NCBI GenBank assembly: GCA_029882685.1
Contig: JAOUKH010000004.1
Location: forward strand, 1 to 44,561
DNA: 44,561 nucleotides
Origin: Cyclobacteriaceae bacterium
Lineage (GTDB): Bacteria; Bacteroidota; Bacteroidia; Cytophagales; Cyclobacteriaceae
Reading direction: 5' to 3'
Shown here: positions 2,767 to 16,025 of the stretch, one piece after another
How the letters are laid out: every line of letters begins with the position of its first letter
Numbering within the stretch: position 1 is the first letter of the stretch
Translations under genes and position numbers: made by a program
Notes under the pieces: generated by a model
Seen by the model: the letters and a program-made list of their open reading frames with translations, nothing else
Database searches by the model: none
Told to the model about the DNA's origin: nothing

Positions 2767-4422
2767 CTATATGTTACCCAAGATTTCACTATATCTAGGA
2801 GTGTCTTTCAATACTTCCATAGCACTTTGAAGTTGTGGGTCACTTTTCAGAGATGATTGTACTTTTCCTCTTTCAAAATAATAATGTGTGGCAATATCTT
2901 GCTCAATTAACCTTGATATTTGTGATTGATAAGTGGTTAATAACTGTGATTTTTCTTCGGCAATAATCTTTCTAAGTCGAGCAATGTTGTCCTCTATTTT
3001 TTCATAATACATTTCTTTTTTCGCAAGTTTTTCAATACTATCCAGTTGTAGTTCAGTATCTGATTGATATTGATAATTTTGCGTTTTTAGCCACGATTTA
3101 AAATCTTCATATTCAGTATTAGTAAGAGAAAATTTATCTGATGAAGGTATTACCTTGTGCTTGTAATAGTATTCAGTAGCATAGTCAAAAGTAAGTCCAG
3201 TTAAAAATAATGAGGCTGAAACTGGAGCCATTTTTTCACTTGGTATACTAATATCGGGATCTACGCCTCCACCATCAAATACAGATCTTCCAATTTTGGT
3301 TTTAAATTCTGAGATAAGTGAATCAGGAATTTTACCAACACTACCATCAGGGTTTCTATTGCCGTAATCTAATGCTTGAATACAACGACCACTAGGTGTA
3401 TAGTATTTTGCTGTTGTAACTTTAAGTTGCGAATTGTAGGAAAGTGGACGAGGAACTTGAACCAGTCCTTTCCCGTATGATTTTTCACCTACTATGACTG
3501 CACGATCATAATCCTGAAGTGTCCCTGCAACAATTTCAGAAGCGGAGGCACTACCACTATTGATTAAAACAACTATGGGTATTTCTGTATCAAGCGGATT
3601 AGTAGTTGTTTTATATACTAAATTGTTCTTAGTTATTTTTCCCTTGGTCTCTACTATTTTTTGACCTTTATCAATAAAAATATTACAGATATTCACAGCT
3701 TCCATCAATAACCCGCCAGGATTATCTCTCAAATCAAAAACTAGTTTTTTCGCACCTTTATTTTTTAATGCTGTTACACTTTCTTTCATATCTTTACTTA
3801 CATGCATAGTGAATTCAGTAAGTTTAATATAACCAACTTCATTATCGAGCATGCCAAAGTATGGAACATGTTCTATACTTACTTTTTCCCTTTCAAGGGT
3901 GAAATTTATAGAAATAGGTTCGTTGTGACGTTTTATTTTTAAGTTTACTATTGATCCAGCCTGACCTTTCATTATTACGTTAGTCTCAATACTGGACATG
4001 CCAACGATATTAGTGCCATCTACTTCAATAATTTCATCTCCAGTTTTAATACCATTTTTATGGGCTGTGTAATTTTCGTTAACTAGTATAACTTTTGTAT
4101 GTCCGTTGATGTTAGTAGTTACTACCCCTATACCACCATATTCTCCAGTATTTGCTGTGCGATAATCTTCAATTTCATTTTCTGAGATATAATTGGTGTA
4201 TGGATCGAGAGAAGCGAGCATGGCATCAATTCCACTACGCATCAATTTGTTGGGATTCACTTCATCAACGTAGTAAGTGTTAACTTCTTTATATAATGAA
4301 GCAAAAACATCAAGGTTTTTTGCTATTTCAAAATATCTATTACCTGGAATTATTGATGCAATACTTATAACAATTACAAATAGTAATCCAGTAATCAATA
4401 ATGGTTTGTTTGATTTCAGCAT
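2767..4422 (-). CDS. S41 family C-terminal processing peptidase
   Basis: The 551-aa protein starts with one membrane segment (about residues 8-26), followed by an N-terminal helical part. A PDZ domain (about 90-175) contains GEYGGIGV and KTGDEIIEVDG. The S41 core (about 190-400) contains FDLRDNPGGLL and the active-site block NSGSASASEI (288-297). S293 and K318 (GEKSYGKG) have the 25-residue Ser-Lys spacing known for the CtpA/CtpB family, so I take them as the catalytic dyad. A C-terminal helical extension of about 150 residues follows. The protein probably acts in the periplasm, anchored to the inner membrane, cleaving proteins near their C-termini. It lies downstream of fabH and a small unknown gene on the same strand. 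Confidence 0.93.
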   Translation of the reverse strand: MLKSNKPLLITGLLFVIVISIASIIPGNRYFEIAKNLDVFASLYKEVNTYYVDEVNPNKLMRSGIDAMLASLDPYTNYISENEIEDYRTANTGEYGGIGVVTTNINGHTKVILVNENYTAHKNGIKTGDEIIEVDGTNIVGMSSIETNVIMKGQAGSIVNLKIKRHNEPISINFTLEREKVSIEHVPYFGMLDNEVGYIKLTEFTMHVSKDMKESVTALKNKGAKKLVFDLRDNPGGLLMEAVNICNIFIDKGQKIVETKGKITKNNLVYKTTTNPLDTEIPIVVLINSGSASASEIVAGTLQDYDRAVIVGEKSYGKGLVQVPRPLSYNSQLKVTTAKYYTPSGRCIQALDYGNRNPDGSVGKIPDSLISEFKTKIGRSVFDGGGVDPDISIPSEKMAPVSASLFLTGLTFDYATEYYYKHKVIPSSDKFSLTNTEYEDFKSWLKTQNYQYQSDTELQLDSIEKLAKKEMYYEKIEDNIARLRKIIAEEKSQLLTTYQSQISRLIEQDIATHYYFERGKVQSSLKSDPQLQSAMEVLKDTPRYSEILGNI

Positions 4423-4717: not shown

Positions 4718-5719
4718 TTACCATTTTATTAATGCAGAAGCCCAAGTAAAACCACTACCAAAAGCTGCTAAACAAACTAAATCATTTTCCTTAACTTTAC
4801 CCTCTTGCCAAGCCTCACTCATAGCGATTGGTATGGAACCTGCCGTTGTATTTCCATATCTCATTATGTTATTGTATATCTTTTCGTCAGGAAGTTCCAG
4901 TTTTTTCTGTAGAAATTGACTTATTCGTAAGTTGGCTTGGTGAGGAATTAATAGATTTATATCTTCTTTGGAAAGATTATTTTTGTCTAATGCTTCATTA
5001 ATTACCTCGGAGAATCTTACAATAGCATGCTTAAAAACCGCACTGCCATTCATGTGTACTTTGTAAGTAGAAGTGTCTAATATTTGTTCTGGTTGTCGTT
5101 CTTCATTTGGTCTACTACTTCCTGGATCTTTTACATATAGCTCTTCGGCAAATCTGCCATCTGCATGTAGGTGGGTAGATAATATACCTTTGTCATCAGT
5201 AGAAGGCTGTAAAATAGCAGCACCAACACCGTCACCAAATATTACCGCAGTGTTTCGTCCTCGTGTGGTTAAATCTAAAGCAGTAGATTGTATTTCTCCT
5301 CCTATTACTAAGATGTTTTTGTATGTACCTGTTTTAATGTATTGTTCACCTATCGAAAGTGCATAAATAAATCCAGAGCATGCATTACGAATATCAAGTG
5401 CACCAATACCTTCCAGTCCTAGCTCACGTTGTACAAGTACTCCAGACCCTGGGAAAAAGTAGTCAGGAGTGATAGTAGCAAAAATAATAAAATCAATATC
5501 ACTAATTTTAATATTGGCTCTTTCAGCTGCTATTTTTGAAGCTTTAGCAGCCATGTTTGCAAGTGTATCTTTAGAAGGATCTATAAATCTTCTTTGTTCA
5601 ATTCCTGTTCTTTCAATAATCCATTCGTTGTTAGTGTCCATCATTGTGGATAACTCATCATTGGTAACAATTCTTTCAGGAACATGGTGACCAATTCCAA
5701 CGATTTTTGCGTTATTCAT
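4718..5719 (-). CDS. fabH: 3-oxoacyl-[acyl-carrier-protein] synthase III (FabH)
   Basis: The 333-aa protein has normal family length and a complete thiolase-fold catalytic triad: C114 in RNACSGF, H260 in LIPHQANLRI and N290 in RYGNTTAGS. It also has the N-terminal motif RTGIEQRR and the C-terminal FGSGFTWAS. Known role: condensation of an acyl-CoA with malonyl-ACP to start type II fatty-acid synthesis in the cytoplasm. It is the first gene of a minus-strand set (fabH, 74-aa protein, S41 protease). The usual rpmF/plsX neighbours are not present. On the minus strand, 24-32 bases upstream of the ATG, TATACTTTG (5743-5751) resembles a -7 element but has one extra base compared with TAnnTTTG. Confidence 0.95.
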   Translation of the reverse strand: MNNAKIVGIGHHVPERIVTNDELSTMMDTNNEWIIERTGIEQRRFIDPSKDTLANMAAKASKIAAERANIKISDIDFIIFATITPDYFFPGSGVLVQRELGLEGIGALDIRNACSGFIYALSIGEQYIKTGTYKNILVIGGEIQSTALDLTTRGRNTAVIFGDGVGAAILQPSTDDKGILSTHLHADGRFAEELYVKDPGSSRPNEERQPEQILDTSTYKVHMNGSAVFKHAIVRFSEVINEALDKNNLSKEDINLLIPHQANLRISQFLQKKLELPDEKIYNNIMRYGNTTAGSIPIAMSEAWQEGKVKENDLVCLAAFGSGFTWASALIKW

Positions 5720-5844: not shown

Positions 5845-6543
5845 TTAATTAAAAAGAGAATAATTACCAAATTGGTCAGCAGGGGTGGAGGGTGTAATCA
5901 ATGAAGGAACATCTTTGTCAATATTATTTATTTCGGGAGAAACCGAATAATGTTCCAATACTTCTGAGTTTGTATTTTGGAGTAATAGCATAAGCTGTTC
6001 CTCATTATTTTCCGTATTTAACCAAATTTGTTCTTGTTCCTTTTTGAACAATGCAGGCATAGTTTTATCGAAGGAAGCTAATATTGTGTTAGCTTCTCTT
6101 AAAATTATCGTAAATGTAGAAACATTTTCTTCTTTATCATTTTCGTATTCTTCATATAATGCAGGAATAGAGTATATATCCTCATTTGGGAAGGTGAATC
6201 GATAAGGAACTTCACCTTTTTTAGAAATTTTTTTCCATGCATAAAATCCATCAATTGGGACAAGACAACGATGTTGGACAAGAGCCTTTCTAAAACTAGG
6301 TTTTTTTGGTATTTCACTTGCCAAAATAGTGTAAAGTTTTTTACTAATGGATTTATTTTTTGACCATTCAGGAGTTACCCCCCAGTGAAAAAAAGAAATT
6401 TGGTCAGGTTTATTAAGAGTAATAACTGGGAGTAAATGAGAAGGAGCCGCATTGAAACGAGGACGGTAAAACTCTTCATTTGCAATAGAGAAACGCTCAG
6501 AAAGCTCTTCTATACTCTTGGTAATTGTATAACGATTGCACAT
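5845..6543 (-). CDS. SRAP (YedK/HMCES-like) domain protein with degenerate active site
   Basis: The 232-aa protein has the SRAP fold signatures: MCNRY at the start (C2, the residue that crosslinks to abasic sites), FNAAPS (N31), FFHWGVTPEW, KPSFRKAL, CLVPIDGFYAWKK and MPALF. Family knowledge: these proteins shield abasic sites in single-stranded DNA through a Cys2 linkage. Aligned by eye with E. coli YedK, C2 and N31 (YedK N37) remain. N75 is I73, R77 is A75, E105 is A102 and H160 is D159. The protein is otherwise full length with no frameshift, so it may be a non-catalytic or altered paralog. The start is fixed by Cys2. The MITE-like element lies 34 bases upstream. Confidence 0.85.
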   Translation of the reverse strand: MCNRYTITKSIEELSERFSIANEEFYRPRFNAAPSHLLPVITLNKPDQISFFHWGVTPEWSKNKSISKKLYTILASEIPKKPSFRKALVQHRCLVPIDGFYAWKKISKKGEVPYRFTFPNEDIYSIPALYEEYENDKEENVSTFTIILREANTILASFDKTMPALFKKEQEQIWLNTENNEEQLMLLLQNTNSEVLEHYSVSPEINNIDKDVPSLITPSTPADQFGNYSLFN

Positions 6544-6743: not shown

Positions 6744-7706
6744 TTATAGGTTAGCATTTATAAACGATAATACTCTTTGTTCTGACCAATAATATCCATC
6801 TTTATTTTTGGAAGGAAAACCACAATGACCACCTTTTTCTGGCATTTCTAAATAAACATATTGGTGTGTTTTAGCTATTTCTATTGGATAGCATTCTTTC
6901 GATAGGAAAGAATCGTTTTTTGCATTAATGATTAATGTGGGTATGGAAATTGATTCCAGAAAATTTACAGAACTACATTGTTCATAATAATCTAATGCAT
7001 TTTTATATCCATGTATAGGAGCTGTGTATTTATCGTCAAAATCAATGATTGTGTTTACTTTTGAAATGCCATTTGTTGATAATGCATTGGGCATAATATG
7101 GGATTTTATTTTCACCTTCTTTTTAAGATTTTGTAAAAAACGTTTTTCGTACATGATATTATGAAATTTTGATATTTCGATACAGCTAGAATGTAAATGA
7201 AGGGGAACAGATATGCCAACACCTTTTTTGATTCTCTTATCTAATTTATTGCCGTTTTCACCGATATATTTTAAGACAAGATTTCCTCCAAGGCTAAACC
7301 CGATAAGCGAAATGTTATTGTACCCTTGGTTTATAGCATGTTGTACTACTGCTTGAAGGTCTTCAGTAGCACCACTATGATAGGCTCTTGGTTGCCAGTT
7401 TACTTCTCCACTACATCCACGAAAGTTCCAAGTAAGTACATCAAAGCTATTGTTGGCAAATATTTTAGCCATACCCATCATATAGGGTCTGTCGGAACTC
7501 CCTTCCAGTCCATGGCATATAATAACGAGTTTGTTATTATTGTTTTTAACCCAATCTAAATCAAGAAAATCATCATCGGGAGTATATATTCTTTCACGTT
7601 CGTAATAAACATCTGTGACTATTCGAAATAATGCAGGAATAATGGTTTCTAGATGATGGTTGAAATAGAGGAATGGAGATTTATAATTTGATTTAACTAT
7701 GGGCAT
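6744..7706 (-). CDS. YheT/EMB8-type alpha/beta-hydrolase
   Basis: The 320-aa protein has an alpha/beta-hydrolase triad: nucleophile S138 in GFSLGGN, D265 in INAKNDSFLS and H294 in KGGHCGF. The oxyanion region is ICHGLEGSSDRPY, and NFRGCSGE is typical of the YheT (COG0429) group. There is no signal peptide, so it is probably a cytoplasmic or membrane-associated esterase of unknown substrate. The stop codon lies only 4 bp from the edge of the MITE-like element, so the element did not shorten the visible core domain. The ATG at 7706 gives the normal family N-terminus (KSPFLYFNHHLETI). Confidence 0.88.
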   Translation of the reverse strand: MPIVKSNYKSPFLYFNHHLETIIPALFRIVTDVYYERERIYTPDDDFLDLDWVKNNNNKLVIICHGLEGSSDRPYMMGMAKIFANNSFDVLTWNFRGCSGEVNWQPRAYHSGATEDLQAVVQHAINQGYNNISLIGFSLGGNLVLKYIGENGNKLDKRIKKGVGISVPLHLHSSCIEISKFHNIMYEKRFLQNLKKKVKIKSHIMPNALSTNGISKVNTIIDFDDKYTAPIHGYKNALDYYEQCSSVNFLESISIPTLIINAKNDSFLSKECYPIEIAKTHQYVYLEMPEKGGHCGFPSKNKDGYYWSEQRVLSFINANL

Positions 7707-11441: not shown

Positions 11442-11672
11442 ATGAGTACAACTCAAATTAGAGAACTACTTCATGAATATATAAATTTAGCGGACGAACG
11501 CTTAATCAATTTGATGTATGCTATGGTTCAGGCTGATATAAAAGAAGAAGATTACGAGTTAAGTGATGCACATAAGAAAATATTAGATGAAAGAATTGCA
11601 GCTCACAATGCTAATCCATCATCTGGGTCAAGTTGGGAGGAAGTGAAATTGCGTCTTAGAAACCAATTATGA
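11442..11672 (+). CDS. Antitoxin, addiction-module component family
   Basis: The 76-aa protein matches the putative addiction-module component family (TIGR02574/PF09720). It has the C-terminal signature HKKILDERIAAHNANPSSG followed by SSWEEVKLRL. The N-terminal half is helical. Its last codon and stop overlap the start of the next gene by 4 bases (ATGA), which couples translation. Family knowledge: a labile antitoxin that binds a RelE/ParE-type toxin. The perfect dyad at 11413-11429 is a candidate autoregulatory site. Confidence 0.9.
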   Translation: MSTTQIRELLHEYINLADERLINLMYAMVQADIKEEDYELSDAHKKILDERIAAHNANPSSGSSWEEVKLRLRNQL

Positions 11673-11959
11673 AGTACACCCTGATTGTTAAGCTAGAAGC
11701 TGAGCTTGACATACTGGAATCAGCCCAATGGTATGAGAAAAAACAGGAAAAGTTAGGTGTTCGTTTTATAGATGAAGTTGGAGAAAAATTGCGTTTGATA
11801 ACTCAAAACCCACTTCATTATCAAGTCAGGCATAAAGATACTCGCCTAGCATTAGTAGATCATTTTCCTTACGCCATTCATTTTATTGTGGAAAATGAAA
11901 TAGTGATAGTCTTAGCTATATTAGGTACTCGAGAAGACCCAAAAAAATGGAATAAATAG
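11669..11959 (+). CDS. RelE/ParE-superfamily toxin
   Basis: The 96-aa protein has the compact RelE/ParE fold pattern: helix-rich N-terminus with LDILESAQWYEKKQEKLG, then FIDEVGEKLRLITQNP, then beta strands with DHFPYAIHFIVENEIVIVLA and a terminal ILGTREDPKKW. This is the usual partner of the PF09720-type antitoxin encoded just upstream. Members are either ribosome-dependent mRNA interferases or gyrase poisons; sequence alone does not separate these here. The frame is intact, so the module is probably functional. Confidence 0.9.
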   Translation: MKYTLIVKLEAELDILESAQWYEKKQEKLGVRFIDEVGEKLRLITQNPLHYQVRHKDTRLALVDHFPYAIHFIVENEIVIVLAILGTREDPKKWNK

Positions 11960-13007: not shown

Positions 13008-16000
13008 ATGCGAAACATCATACTCTCTTTTGTTTTACTTTTCATCTCACTAACAGCATTTTCGCAAGAGGCAGTTCTCAATACCAACCCTCCTAGTTTA
13101 AAGTGGAAGAGAATTGATACGGAAGATTTTAGAATAATTTTTCCTGTCAGTTATGAGAGCGAAGCTCAGCGAATGGCAAACACTTTACAAACGATTCATG
13201 CCCCAGAGGCGAAAACATTGGGTACTTTGCCTAAAAAGATATCAGTAATCCTTCAAAATCAAAACTCGATTTCCAATGGGTTTGTGTCTATAGGACCAAG
13301 ACGTTCTGAATTTTTTACTAGCTCACCACAAAATTACAATTTTTTGGGTACTAATGAATGGATGAATTTATTGGCATCTCATGAATATAGACATATTGTG
13401 CAATACGCACATAGTAATACAGGCATGACCAAATTTTTCAAAACTATTTTTGGTCAATATACACAAGCTGCACTATCTAATTTGGCTGTACCAACATGGT
13501 TTTGGGAAGGTGATGCCACAATGATAGAAACGGCATTCACAAAAAGTGGACGAGGTAGATTGCCTAATTTTGATCGCACGTTTAGAGCTAATTTAGTAGA
13601 AGGAAAAAGGTATAAATATGATAAGCAATATTTACGCTCTTACAAAGATTTTGTGCCTAATCATTATGTGTTAGGCTACCATTTTACAACCCATGTGAGA
13701 AGAAAAACCAATGATGCCAATGTATGGAGTGATGTAACGGAAAGAGCGTTTAAATGGCCAATAATTCCTTTTGCATTTTCAAGTTCTTTAAAAAAATCAA
13801 CAGGAAAAAACTTGAAAGAAAATTATAATGAAATGCTTGATGAACTGGATGGTTTATGGACTGATCAGATAGAGAATTTACAACTCACTTCTTTCGAAAC
13901 TATTAATAAACGAAAGAAAACGATTTATACGGATTATAGCAACCCAATGCCAATGATAGATGGTAGTATATTGTGTATGAAATCTGGTATTGGTAATATT
14001 CAACAATTTGTAATTATAGATAAAGAGGGTAATGAAAAAGTGGTGCATACACCTGGGGTAATTAATAATTCTGGTTCTTTTTCTATCTCTGGCAATCAGG
14101 TGGTGTGGAATGAGTTTCGATACAACCCACGATATCCAAATCAAAGTTATTCAGTAATAGAAACTTTAAACACGGGAATTAGAAAAAATAAAAAATTAAC
14201 AAGTAAAACACGTTTTCATAGTGCTGCATTATCTCCTAGTGGAACAAAAATACTCACGGTGGATGCTAAGGTAGATGGTAGTTATCAAGTGGTAGTAATA
14301 GATGCATTTTATGGTAGTGAAATTAAACGATTTGACAGTGAGCCAAACACTTTTTATAATCTACCAACGTGGTCGTCTAGTGAAAATCAAGTATTGGTAA
14401 TGAAAACCAATAGCTTGGGAAAATCAGTAATAGTATTAGATTATGAAACAGGTGTTGAAAAGGAATTAATACATCCTTCACATGAAAATACAGGAAATGC
14501 TTTTTTACATGATGATTATCTTTTTTACCATTCTCCATACTCTGGTATTGATAATGTGTATGCAATGGAACTGGTTTCTGGAAAACATTTCCAGATAACT
14601 AGTAGCAAATATGGAGCATATAATGCGGCAGTTTCGTTAGACAGTAAATCAATTTATTACAACGATCATACAGTAAATGGGCTTGATATTGTTCGCATTC
14701 CGTTTGATCCAAAATCATGGATTCCTTTAGAGAAAGTAAAAGTAGATAAAGTAGAATACTACCAACCTATTGTGGAGCAGGAGGCTGGAGATCATCTGTT
14801 AGAAAATATTTCTACAACAGAATATGATGTAAAGAAATATGGCAAGTTACGAGGGCTGATAAACTTGCATAGCTGGGGCCCATTACTTACCAGTAATATC
14901 AATGAACTGGAAGCTGGGTTACTATCACGTGATGTAATGAGTACTACTTCACTGTCTGCTGGAGTAGTATATGATGCAGTAGAGCAAACTGCATTTGGTG
15001 TTGGTCGTGCAAGTTATCAAGGATTATGGCCGATACTAGATGTAGAGGTTATTAAAGGAAAAAGAAAAGAGGATCGTTCTACAGATAATAAAGAGTTAAA
15101 AGTGGAATGGGAAGAGTCAAGTATTGAAACTGGATTAAGAATACCTTTGAATTTGACTTCTGGAGCATTTCGACAACAATTGACACTAAGTAATTCATTG
15201 GGTATTCGTGAAATAAATAATTATCAAAGTGATTTAGGTACTTTGGGTAGATTTCGCGATGGAATAGGTAGTGCATTAGTTTTGGATACTGTTACAAACA
15301 CATATGATACAGTTAAAGTTGATATAGTTCGCTTAAATTCTACGGATTTGAACGATGGAAAATCAGTTTATAATCATTTTGAATTAAGGTACAGTACATT
15401 TTATAATCAAAGTAGTCGTGATATTTATCCAAAATGGGGCTTTGTTTTAAATCTTGATACATATAATACTATTTATGGAGATTTTAATGGAACATTAACT
15501 GCAATAAATACACGATTTTTTCTCCCTGGACTTTTCAAACATCACTCATTTTATTTTGTAGCATCCAGCCAGATAAGAAAATCACACAGCGATTTCAATT
15601 TATATTCTTTCCAAAATAGAATTTTTCGTGCTAGAGGGCATGGTTTTTATAATGATAAAACTGCTTCCACTTTTAGGTCAAATTATGTCTTACCCATTTG
15701 GCATCCAGATATTGCTCTTGGTCCATTGGTCTATGTAAAAAGGTTTAAACTGAATGGATTTATAGATGTCGGAAAAAGTAGTATTGAGAATTATTATTTC
15801 ATAAAAAGTAATTTCTCATTTTTCACTGATGATTTATTTGAAGTAAAGTATAAATCTTTCGGAGTAGAGCTTACTATGGATTTTAATGTGCTACGATTAC
15901 CATATGATTTGGAAATTGGTGTTCGATTAGTTCATGCTTCATCTCGCATAGTTAGAGATAATGAAGATGATGTAAGTTTTGCTGATACACAATTTGAATT

Positions 16001-16025
16001 CATGATAGGAAATCTTAGCTTCTAA
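13008..16025 (+). CDS. Secreted gluzincin-like metalloprotease with beta-propeller and C-terminal outer-membrane barrel
   Basis: The 1005-aa protein begins with a signal peptide (MRNIILSFVLLFISLTAFSQ). A peptidase domain follows (about 30-280), with HEYRH at 125-129 and a downstream acid E167 in WFWEGDA; the roughly 38-residue gap fits a zinc gluzincin (HExxH plus distant Glu). About 300-600 is a TolB/WD40-like propeller, with repeats such as SPSGTKILTVDA, NLPTWSSSENQVLVM and DSKSIYYNDH. About 640-1005 is beta-rich and ends in F (FEFMIGNLSF), like BamA/surface-antigen barrels. I infer a periplasmic protease tethered to the outer membrane by its own barrel. The domain order is read by eye; the barrel assignment is the least certain part. 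Confidence 0.75.
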   Translation: MRNIILSFVLLFISLTAFSQEAVLNTNPPSLKWKRIDTEDFRIIFPVSYESEAQRMANTLQTIHAPEAKTLGTLPKKISVILQNQNSISNGFVSIGPRRSEFFTSSPQNYNFLGTNEWMNLLASHEYRHIVQYAHSNTGMTKFFKTIFGQYTQAALSNLAVPTWFWEGDATMIETAFTKSGRGRLPNFDRTFRANLVEGKRYKYDKQYLRSYKDFVPNHYVLGYHFTTHVRRKTNDANVWSDVTERAFKWPIIPFAFSSSLKKSTGKNLKENYNEMLDELDGLWTDQIENLQLTSFETINKRKKTIYTDYSNPMPMIDGSILCMKSGIGNIQQFVIIDKEGNEKVVHTPGVINNSGSFSISGNQVVWNEFRYNPRYPNQSYSVIETLNTGIRKNKKLTSKTRFHSAALSPSGTKILTVDAKVDGSYQVVVIDAFYGSEIKRFDSEPNTFYNLPTWSSSENQVLVMKTNSLGKSVIVLDYETGVEKELIHPSHENTGNAFLHDDYLFYHSPYSGIDNVYAMELVSGKHFQITSSKYGAYNAAVSLDSKSIYYNDHTVNGLDIVRIPFDPKSWIPLEKVKVDKVEYYQPIVEQEAGDHLLENISTTEYDVKKYGKLRGLINLHSWGPLLTSNINELEAGLLSRDVMSTTSLSAGVVYDAVEQTAFGVGRASYQGLWPILDVEVIKGKRKEDRSTDNKELKVEWEESSIETGLRIPLNLTSGAFRQQLTLSNSLGIREINNYQSDLGTLGRFRDGIGSALVLDTVTNTYDTVKVDIVRLNSTDLNDGKSVYNHFELRYSTFYNQSSRDIYPKWGFVLNLDTYNTIYGDFNGTLTAINTRFFLPGLFKHHSFYFVASSQIRKSHSDFNLYSFQNRIFRARGHGFYNDKTASTFRSNYVLPIWHPDIALGPLVYVKRFKLNGFIDVGKSSIENYYFIKSNFSFFTDDLFEVKYKSFGVELTMDFNVLRLPYDLEIGVRLVHASSRIVRDNEDDVSFADTQFEFMIGNLSF

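Follow-up and report, generated by a model that had tools for sequence, protein, structure and literature searches.

SRAP proteins are understood through a single reaction, the crosslinking of Cys2 to abasic (AP) sites. The 44,561-nt stretch analyzed here (the window; contig JAOUKH010000004.1 of assembly GCA_029882685.1, positions 1 to 44,561) comes from a metagenome-assembled genome of a Cyclobacteriaceae bacterium (3.43 Mb, 89% complete) and carries a SRAP gene in which most residues of this reaction are replaced. The question raised by the locus is what such a gene is kept for.

A complete predicted SRAP domain with a replaced active site

The window protein matches the Pfam SRAP profile (PF02586) over residues 1-207 with 165.5 bits (cut-off 27.1), and its sole match in NCBIfam is the YedK subfamily, far under the cut-off. 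The AlphaFold2 model of the protein, built from 79 aligned sequences, has a mean pLDDT of 91 and a pTM of 0.88, and all 21 Foldseek matches of the model at E <= 0.001 are SRAP structures. The closest solved structure is Bacteroides BT_1218 (PDB 2f20; VIA-align Z 25.3, 24% identity over 211 residues), and the model also aligns with the YedK-DNA complexes (Z 24.3-24.8) and with HMCES (Z 23.5-23.9). Profile and fold (Z 24-25) both place the protein in the SRAP superfamily (PF02586), and the model indicates that its SRAP domain is complete, in agreement with a preliminary description of this DNA that had reported an intact frame and a well-kept fold. BT_1218 carries canonical NARA, YFEW and KHRM motifs in the alignment, and the window protein lacks all three.

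The alignment to E. coli YedK, whose numbering agrees with PMC9436759, pairs C2 with C2, G3 with N3, R4 with R4, N37 with N31, N75 with T72, R77 with L74, E105 with A102, H160 with D159 and R162 with T161. It confirms the earlier claims that C2 and N37 are kept as C2 and N31, that E105 and H160 have become A102 and D159, and that, Cys2 and Asn37 apart, the known catalytic residues have been lost. N75 and R77 are both gone as claimed, but their assignment to I73 and A75 was off by one column; the correct equivalents are T72 and L74, because an ungapped alignment with L063 (KIYNVPSADI against KLYTILASEI) fixes the columns. Compared to E. coli YedK and human HMCES (PF02586), the window protein shares the whole fold, Cys2, Asn37 and Arg4, whereas Gly3 is replaced, as are Glu105 and His160 (the catalytic residues of AP-site-crosslinking SRAPs), Asn75 (which positions Cys2) and the conserved pocket-rim arginines, Arg77 and Arg162. 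No catalytic residues supplied from other positions are seen in the alignment. We take R77 and R162 of YedK to be the equivalents of R86 and R180 of 1zn6 in PMC3765255. Cys as residue 2, the superfamily criterion of PMC3765255, is present in the window protein and in its ortholog from a second species (below); the available part of that paper describes Cys2 as absolutely conserved in the superfamily and names conserved Asn, Glu and His. Judged from its residues, the window protein is best classed as a variant within the SRAP superfamily and not as a member of the AP-crosslinking functional class.

Substitutions of these residues in YedK are described in the available part of PMC9436759. E105A decreases the fast phase about 2.5-fold and the slow phase at least 1000-fold and gives 50% crosslinking in 1 h, H160A causes a loss of at least 10-fold, H160E is about 3-fold slower, N75A has little cost, and C2A is an AP lyase that acts via the N-terminal amine. 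The window protein resembles a YedK double mutant at 105 and 160 that keeps C2 and also lacks the pocket-rim arginines. Because Glu105, His160 (acid-base catalysis) and R77/R162 are gone, at most, thiazolidine would be expected to form slowly with an aldehyde and largely without assistance; C2-A102-D159 might still crosslink slowly, because YedK E105A and H160E keep partial rates in the available part of PMC9436759. Fast abasic-site crosslinking is thus probably absent from the window protein, and AP-site crosslinking at the normal speed of YedK or HMCES would not be expected of it. The preliminary description had made a three-way guess about the function of the protein. Its first option, irreversible DNA binding, is improbable with the two pocket-rim arginines and the residues for both promotion and reversal of the crosslink all lost. 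The other two, action on another substrate and lost catalysis, may each apply; the order-wide pattern favours a loss of fast crosslinking in which a non-covalent role is kept.

A positional ortholog of the canonical SRAP gene

No canonical SRAP copy was found in the window genome (G000), which yields one SRAP match, the window gene, in an assembly that is 89% complete. A second species of the genus (G054) also yields one SRAP match (L062), 68% identical to the window protein, with C2, S3, T and L in the N75 and R77 columns, S105, E160 and T162; orthologs with the same kinds of substitution, which the preliminary description had proposed to look for, are therefore present in a second species. 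The neighbours of the G054 gene match those of the window SRAP (Table 1).

Table 1. Features of the window discussed in the text
Feature	Position	Strand	Remark
S41 C-terminal processing peptidase	2767..4422	-	Next same-strand gene; same place in G054
FabH (beta-ketoacyl-ACP synthase III)	4718..5719	-	Conserved downstream SRAP neighbour
SRAP-fold protein, 232 aa	5845..6543	-	ATG (6543) to TAA (5845); Cys2 and Asn31 kept; N75/R77/E105/H160/R162 equivalents are T72/L74/A102/D159/T161
C-terminal tail, residues 223-232 (DQFGNYSLFN)	5848..5877	-	Beta-clamp-motif-like
Met1-Cys2-Asn3	6535..6543	-	N-terminal Cys kept, Gly3 replaced
YheT-like alpha/beta hydrolase	6744..7706	-	PRK10985 match below its cut-off; conserved upstream SRAP neighbour
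Likely type II toxin-antitoxin pair	11442..11959	+	76-aa ORF 11442..11672 (by eye) overlaps ParE-family ORF 11669..11959 by 4 bases
1005-aa protein	13008..16025	+	No Pfam match; homologs near SRAP in 12 other loci

The gene order at the window locus is hydrolase-SRAP-FabH-S41 peptidase. Among 101 fetched loci of the family, the YheT-like hydrolase is found at 81 (in 77 of these on the SRAP strand and roughly 1 kb upstream) and FabH at 51; either gene lies within the fetched stretch at 91 loci, both at 41 and neither at 10. The canonical loci have the hydrolase in 17 and FabH in 16 of 19 cases, and the non-canonical loci in 64 and 35 of 82 cases, respectively. Because both forms share the hydrolase/FabH synteny, canonical and non-canonical SRAPs occupy one ancestral locus. 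Canonical Cytophagales SRAPs (Algoriphagus, Cyclobacterium, Belliella) are about 40-48% identical to the window protein, have the same tail and stand in the same place beside the hydrolase and FabH in part of the genomes; unlike the window protein, they keep C2-G3-E105-H160. The I2/V2 clade keeps the hydrolase, and its FabH is mostly replaced by a different gene. In position the window gene corresponds to the canonical YedK/HMCES-type SRAP gene of Cytophagales, and it is an ortholog of that gene. The suggestion that it is a paralog is rejected: no other SRAP was found in its genome (89% complete), and synteny puts it where the canonical gene stands.

A sole SRAP of this kind is found repeatedly. 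By hand count, this holds for 24 genomes of at least 95% completeness, each with a single SRAP match that lacks Glu105 (Asp105 in two of the 24). A paralog subfamily that begins MC[YF] occurs at other loci in other genomes of the family and makes up 11 of 19 rows that were aligned. Like the window protein, these paralogs are SRAPs by profile, and some have QLxLF ends, but they keep His160 and have Glu at 105 (Asp in one row); an LF ending is found in 6 of the 11, some as QLGLF or QLDLF (e.g., L264, L267 and L268). No MC[YF] paralog was found in the window genome (89% complete). Separately, the 12-16 kb stretches L081 and L135 hold, besides the syntenic SRAP, a second copy that is very divergent and tailless (C2-N3-R4, NCYY[CI]W).

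The canonical site was lost repeatedly

We compared 100 full-length rows of the family. C2-G3-E105-H160 is found in 19 and other states in 81, which is not a prevalence because a low Pfam score was one of the reasons for choosing loci. Glu105 is absent from 71 rows, His160 from 73 and both from 68, and Asn37 is kept in 99. Cys2 persists in 16 of the 81 non-canonical rows and is absent from 65; across the 100 rows, residue 2 is C (35), I (29), P (11), S (8), L (6), G (5), V (3), F (2) or Y (1). The non-canonical copies include those of Fulvivirga kasyanovii, F. marina and Roseivirga ehrenbergii among the matches listed. A wider scan of genome contigs, from which the best 80 of at least 583 relatives were taken, includes 36 rows (L224-L259, among the matches listed) that all have C2-G3-E105-H160, except one with Asp105. 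These rows belong mostly to other orders and phyla; four carry titles of Cytophagales organisms. A phage origin of the window gene was considered and set aside, as one scan of viral contigs with exact peptide patterns of the window protein found no relative. No description of bacterial SRAPs without Cys2 or Glu105 was found among the open-licence PMC papers listed.

Trees were built without the active-site columns and rooted with YedK or with other families of the order. From the second tree, 13 family rows out of 103 were left out (L161, L081a and L135a, and a further 10 that are truncated or have long branches), as were three of the 28 rows from the order (L300, L326 and L327); YedK was removed after alignment. 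With both rootings, canonical forms are among the deep branches and non-canonical forms are nested in several places, and the minimum number of Glu105 changes is 12 on the YedK-rooted tree and 9 on the tree rooted with other families. A single origin of the Glu105 loss is rejected by the AU test (delta lnL 89.6, p-AU ~1e-111) on 27 rows hand-chosen from 115 after the tree had been seen. These results indicate an ancestral canonical site in Cytophagales and repeated losses of Glu105.

The loss of Glu105 goes together with that of Gly3. With YedK included, Gly3 is found in 26 of 30 rows that keep Glu105 and in none of the 71 rows that lack it, where residue 3 is Asp or Glu in 57; in the wider set, the corresponding counts for Gly3 are 37 of 42 and 0 of 73. 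A sign test of the co-change is not significant, with only 3 independent pairs on well-supported branches, and the coupling is carried by the 2x2 table and the repeated clades, not by the sign test. An acid at 3, 105 or 160 is kept in 62 of the 71 Glu105-less rows. These counts can be cited for a reading in which abasic sites would still be crosslinked or processed, with the Glu105 carboxylate supplied from another position: from Asp/Glu3 in most relatives and from Asp159 or Glu at the His160 position in the window genus, with the N-terminal proline as a Schiff-base nucleophile in P2 forms. Some P2 forms indeed keep Gly3, Glu105 and His160. On the other side, Met1 removal is not expected before Ile2, so the 29 Ile2 rows would lack a residue-2 amine; the window pair has Asn3/Ser3 and no acid at 3, along with changes in the N75-R77 loop and at R162; and nine Glu105-less rows have no acid at 3, 105 or 160. 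The small, 3-fold cost of H160E in YedK and the AP lyase activity of C2A via the N-terminal amine (PMC9436759, available part) speak for such relocated chemistry, which we nevertheless consider, in all its parts together, rather unlikely.

The P2 forms with Gly3, Glu105 and His160 intact are L071, L084 and L317 (also L076). An N-terminal proline is the Schiff-base nucleophile in Fpg/Nei, and in these forms a proline nucleophile would predict an AP lyase rather than a stable crosslink.

Selection keeps the protein while the pocket varies

The dN/dS ratio is 0.016-0.21 in seven non-canonical pairs with dS<1 and 0.055 in one canonical pair; between the window gene and its G054 ortholog it is 0.107 at a dS of 1.9, which is near saturation. 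The losses common to a second species and this purifying selection support the earlier argument against simple decay. Decay in one strain is rejected, because the G054 ortholog, at the identity given above, has matching losses and is under purifying selection. In family f8, the assemblies are 1.0-1.6 Mb (54-93% complete) and the SRAP gene is kept; a useless gene would not be expected to last in such small genomes. All eight f8 loci examined (L308-L315) lack C2, G3, E105 and H160, and all eight have FabH adjoining SRAP and the tail NQYGNYSLFD; no YheT-like hydrolase was found near SRAP at these 8 loci.

We compared the entropy of each position between 81 diverse non-canonical rows and 19 canonical rows, which are closer to each other. 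The largest gains in the non-canonical rows are at window positions 159, 84, 149, 102, 77, 111, 2, 73 and 91, followed up to rank 18 by 210, 75, 206, 74, 11, 29, 3, 9 and 13. Eight of these 18 (159, 102, 2, 3, 73, 74, 75 and 77) are catalytic positions, Gly3 or the N75-R77 loop, and position 149 aligns with T149 of YedK. Window positions 226, 227, 230 and 231 stay conserved. The strong variation of pocket positions between lineages, with fold and tail kept and low dN/dS within lineages, is consistent with a pocket retuned in each lineage for another ligand (a modified base, a nucleotide, a protein N-terminus or a small aldehyde), and the I2/V2 clade is set apart by a TerC-family pair lying upstream of the hydrolase at 28 loci. 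However, no gene was seen to accompany the loss of the pocket from lineage to lineage, canonical and non-canonical forms have hydrolase and/or FabH neighbours in common, and a pocket that has ceased to matter would explain the variation equally well. We regard a retuned pocket as improbable.

The neighbours also bear on a role as a SRAP-like, UmuD-like accessory subunit of a Y-family polymerase (UmuC/DinB). The available part of PMC12926913, a 2026 survey, links a SRAP-related group with UmuC-like polymerases and proposes its members as PolY-binding subunits acting with translesion polymerases. The window genome has two Y-family genes, and in L065 the SRAP ORF has a Y-family ORF about 1.2 kb away. 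This is the only such case found among 101 loci searched by BLAST with 17 query ORFs. In the annotated first 16 kb of the window, none of umuDC, dinB, imuB/dnaE2 and lexA is among the nearest neighbours of the SRAP gene (hydrolase, FabH and S41 peptidase). The group in PMC12926913 is defined by its Y-family association, which the window gene lacks, and the available part of the survey does not give it as lacking catalytic residues or as coming from Cytophagales. A polymerase subunit of this kind is very unlikely. A slow decay of a dispensable gene on its way out, for which the missing catalytic residues and the 4 of 196 family genomes without a SRAP match could be cited, is the least credible reading of all, as no listed SRAP match has an in-frame stop, selection is purifying, synteny and tail are conserved and the gene is retained in the small f8 genomes.

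A conserved C-terminal tail resembles a clamp-binding motif

Most long-form orthologs end with DQ[FH]GN[LYF][ST]LF plus 0-3 residues, and G226, L230 and F231 are invariant in 79 aligned rows (79 of the 103 family rows). A hydrophobic-x-L-F ending is found in 99 of 103 SRAP ORFs versus 3 of 1207 other ORFs at the same loci, which include spurious and contig-cut ones. E. coli YedK, unlike the window protein, does not have the Cytophagales tail. The consensus of the beta-clamp-binding motif is QL[SD]LF, and most clamp motifs have the Gln. In the window genome, DinB ends with QLTLDF and a UmuC-like protein has VQLHLFEN, and UmuC-like proteins of related genomes carry HQI[ST]LFDD or YQIDLFDD. The window tail (NYSLF) has Asn in place of the motif Gln, and its pLDDT is lower than that of the domain, with a mean of 73 for residues 221-230 and 48 for residues 231-232. 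The tail resembles a beta-clamp-binding motif and may dock on the clamp; it may also simply pack on the SRAP domain. Human HMCES reportedly binds PCNA through a C-terminal PIP box. The available part of PMC10250235 does not show this binding, and we found no description of a clamp motif in SRAP among the open-licence PMC papers listed.

Similar endings occur outside the syntenic genes. Canonical SRAPs of several groups (L225, L230, L233, L239 and L247) end with QxxLF or QLxLF, which is beta-clamp-motif-like, and 10 of the 36 rows L224-L259 (among the matches listed) end in or near LF, five of them as QxxLF.

The reading that we prefer, at roughly even confidence, is that of a replisome-tethered SRAP in which fast abasic-site crosslinking has been dispensed with and a non-covalent role kept. 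In several lineages, including that of the window, the AP-site-crosslinking pocket would have been taken apart under continued selection on the remainder of the protein. The protein would most likely be brought to the replication fork by its conserved beta-clamp-motif-like tail, where it could work without a fast covalent bond, either reading ssDNA or abasic sites while tethered or serving fork or translesion factors as an adaptor. This reading draws on the residues, the fold model, the synteny, the repeated loss, the purifying selection and the conservation of the tail, and it supposes clamp docking, DNA binding and the absence of fast crosslinking. Against it, no DNA-repair or SOS gene adjoins the window SRAP, and Asn occupies the tail position that is Gln in most clamp motifs.

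Implications for SRAP function

A more far-reaching and doubtful possibility is that the Cytophagales SRAP pocket has not been lost but repeatedly rebuilt: with Glu105 gone, a changed side chain at position 3 (Glu, Asp or Asn) would be combined with a changed N-terminus (Pro, Ser, Gly, or Ile behind a kept Met1). If this were true, clamp-tethered proteins with new activities would replace suicide crosslinking at the fork, for example, non-covalent abasic-site caps, AP lyases with an N-terminal proline, or readers of another aldehyde lesion.

That this bacterium and a number of relatives keep the gene intact, at one chromosomal position and with its tail nearly unchanged, suggests a second job for the protein. 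The residues of the one known reaction are lost repeatedly while fold, locus and tail are kept, often in the sole SRAP of the genome, which points to a selectable function besides the crosslink. The non-canonical SRAPs of Cytophagales would be natural separation-of-function variants, with one group inside an otherwise canonical clade.
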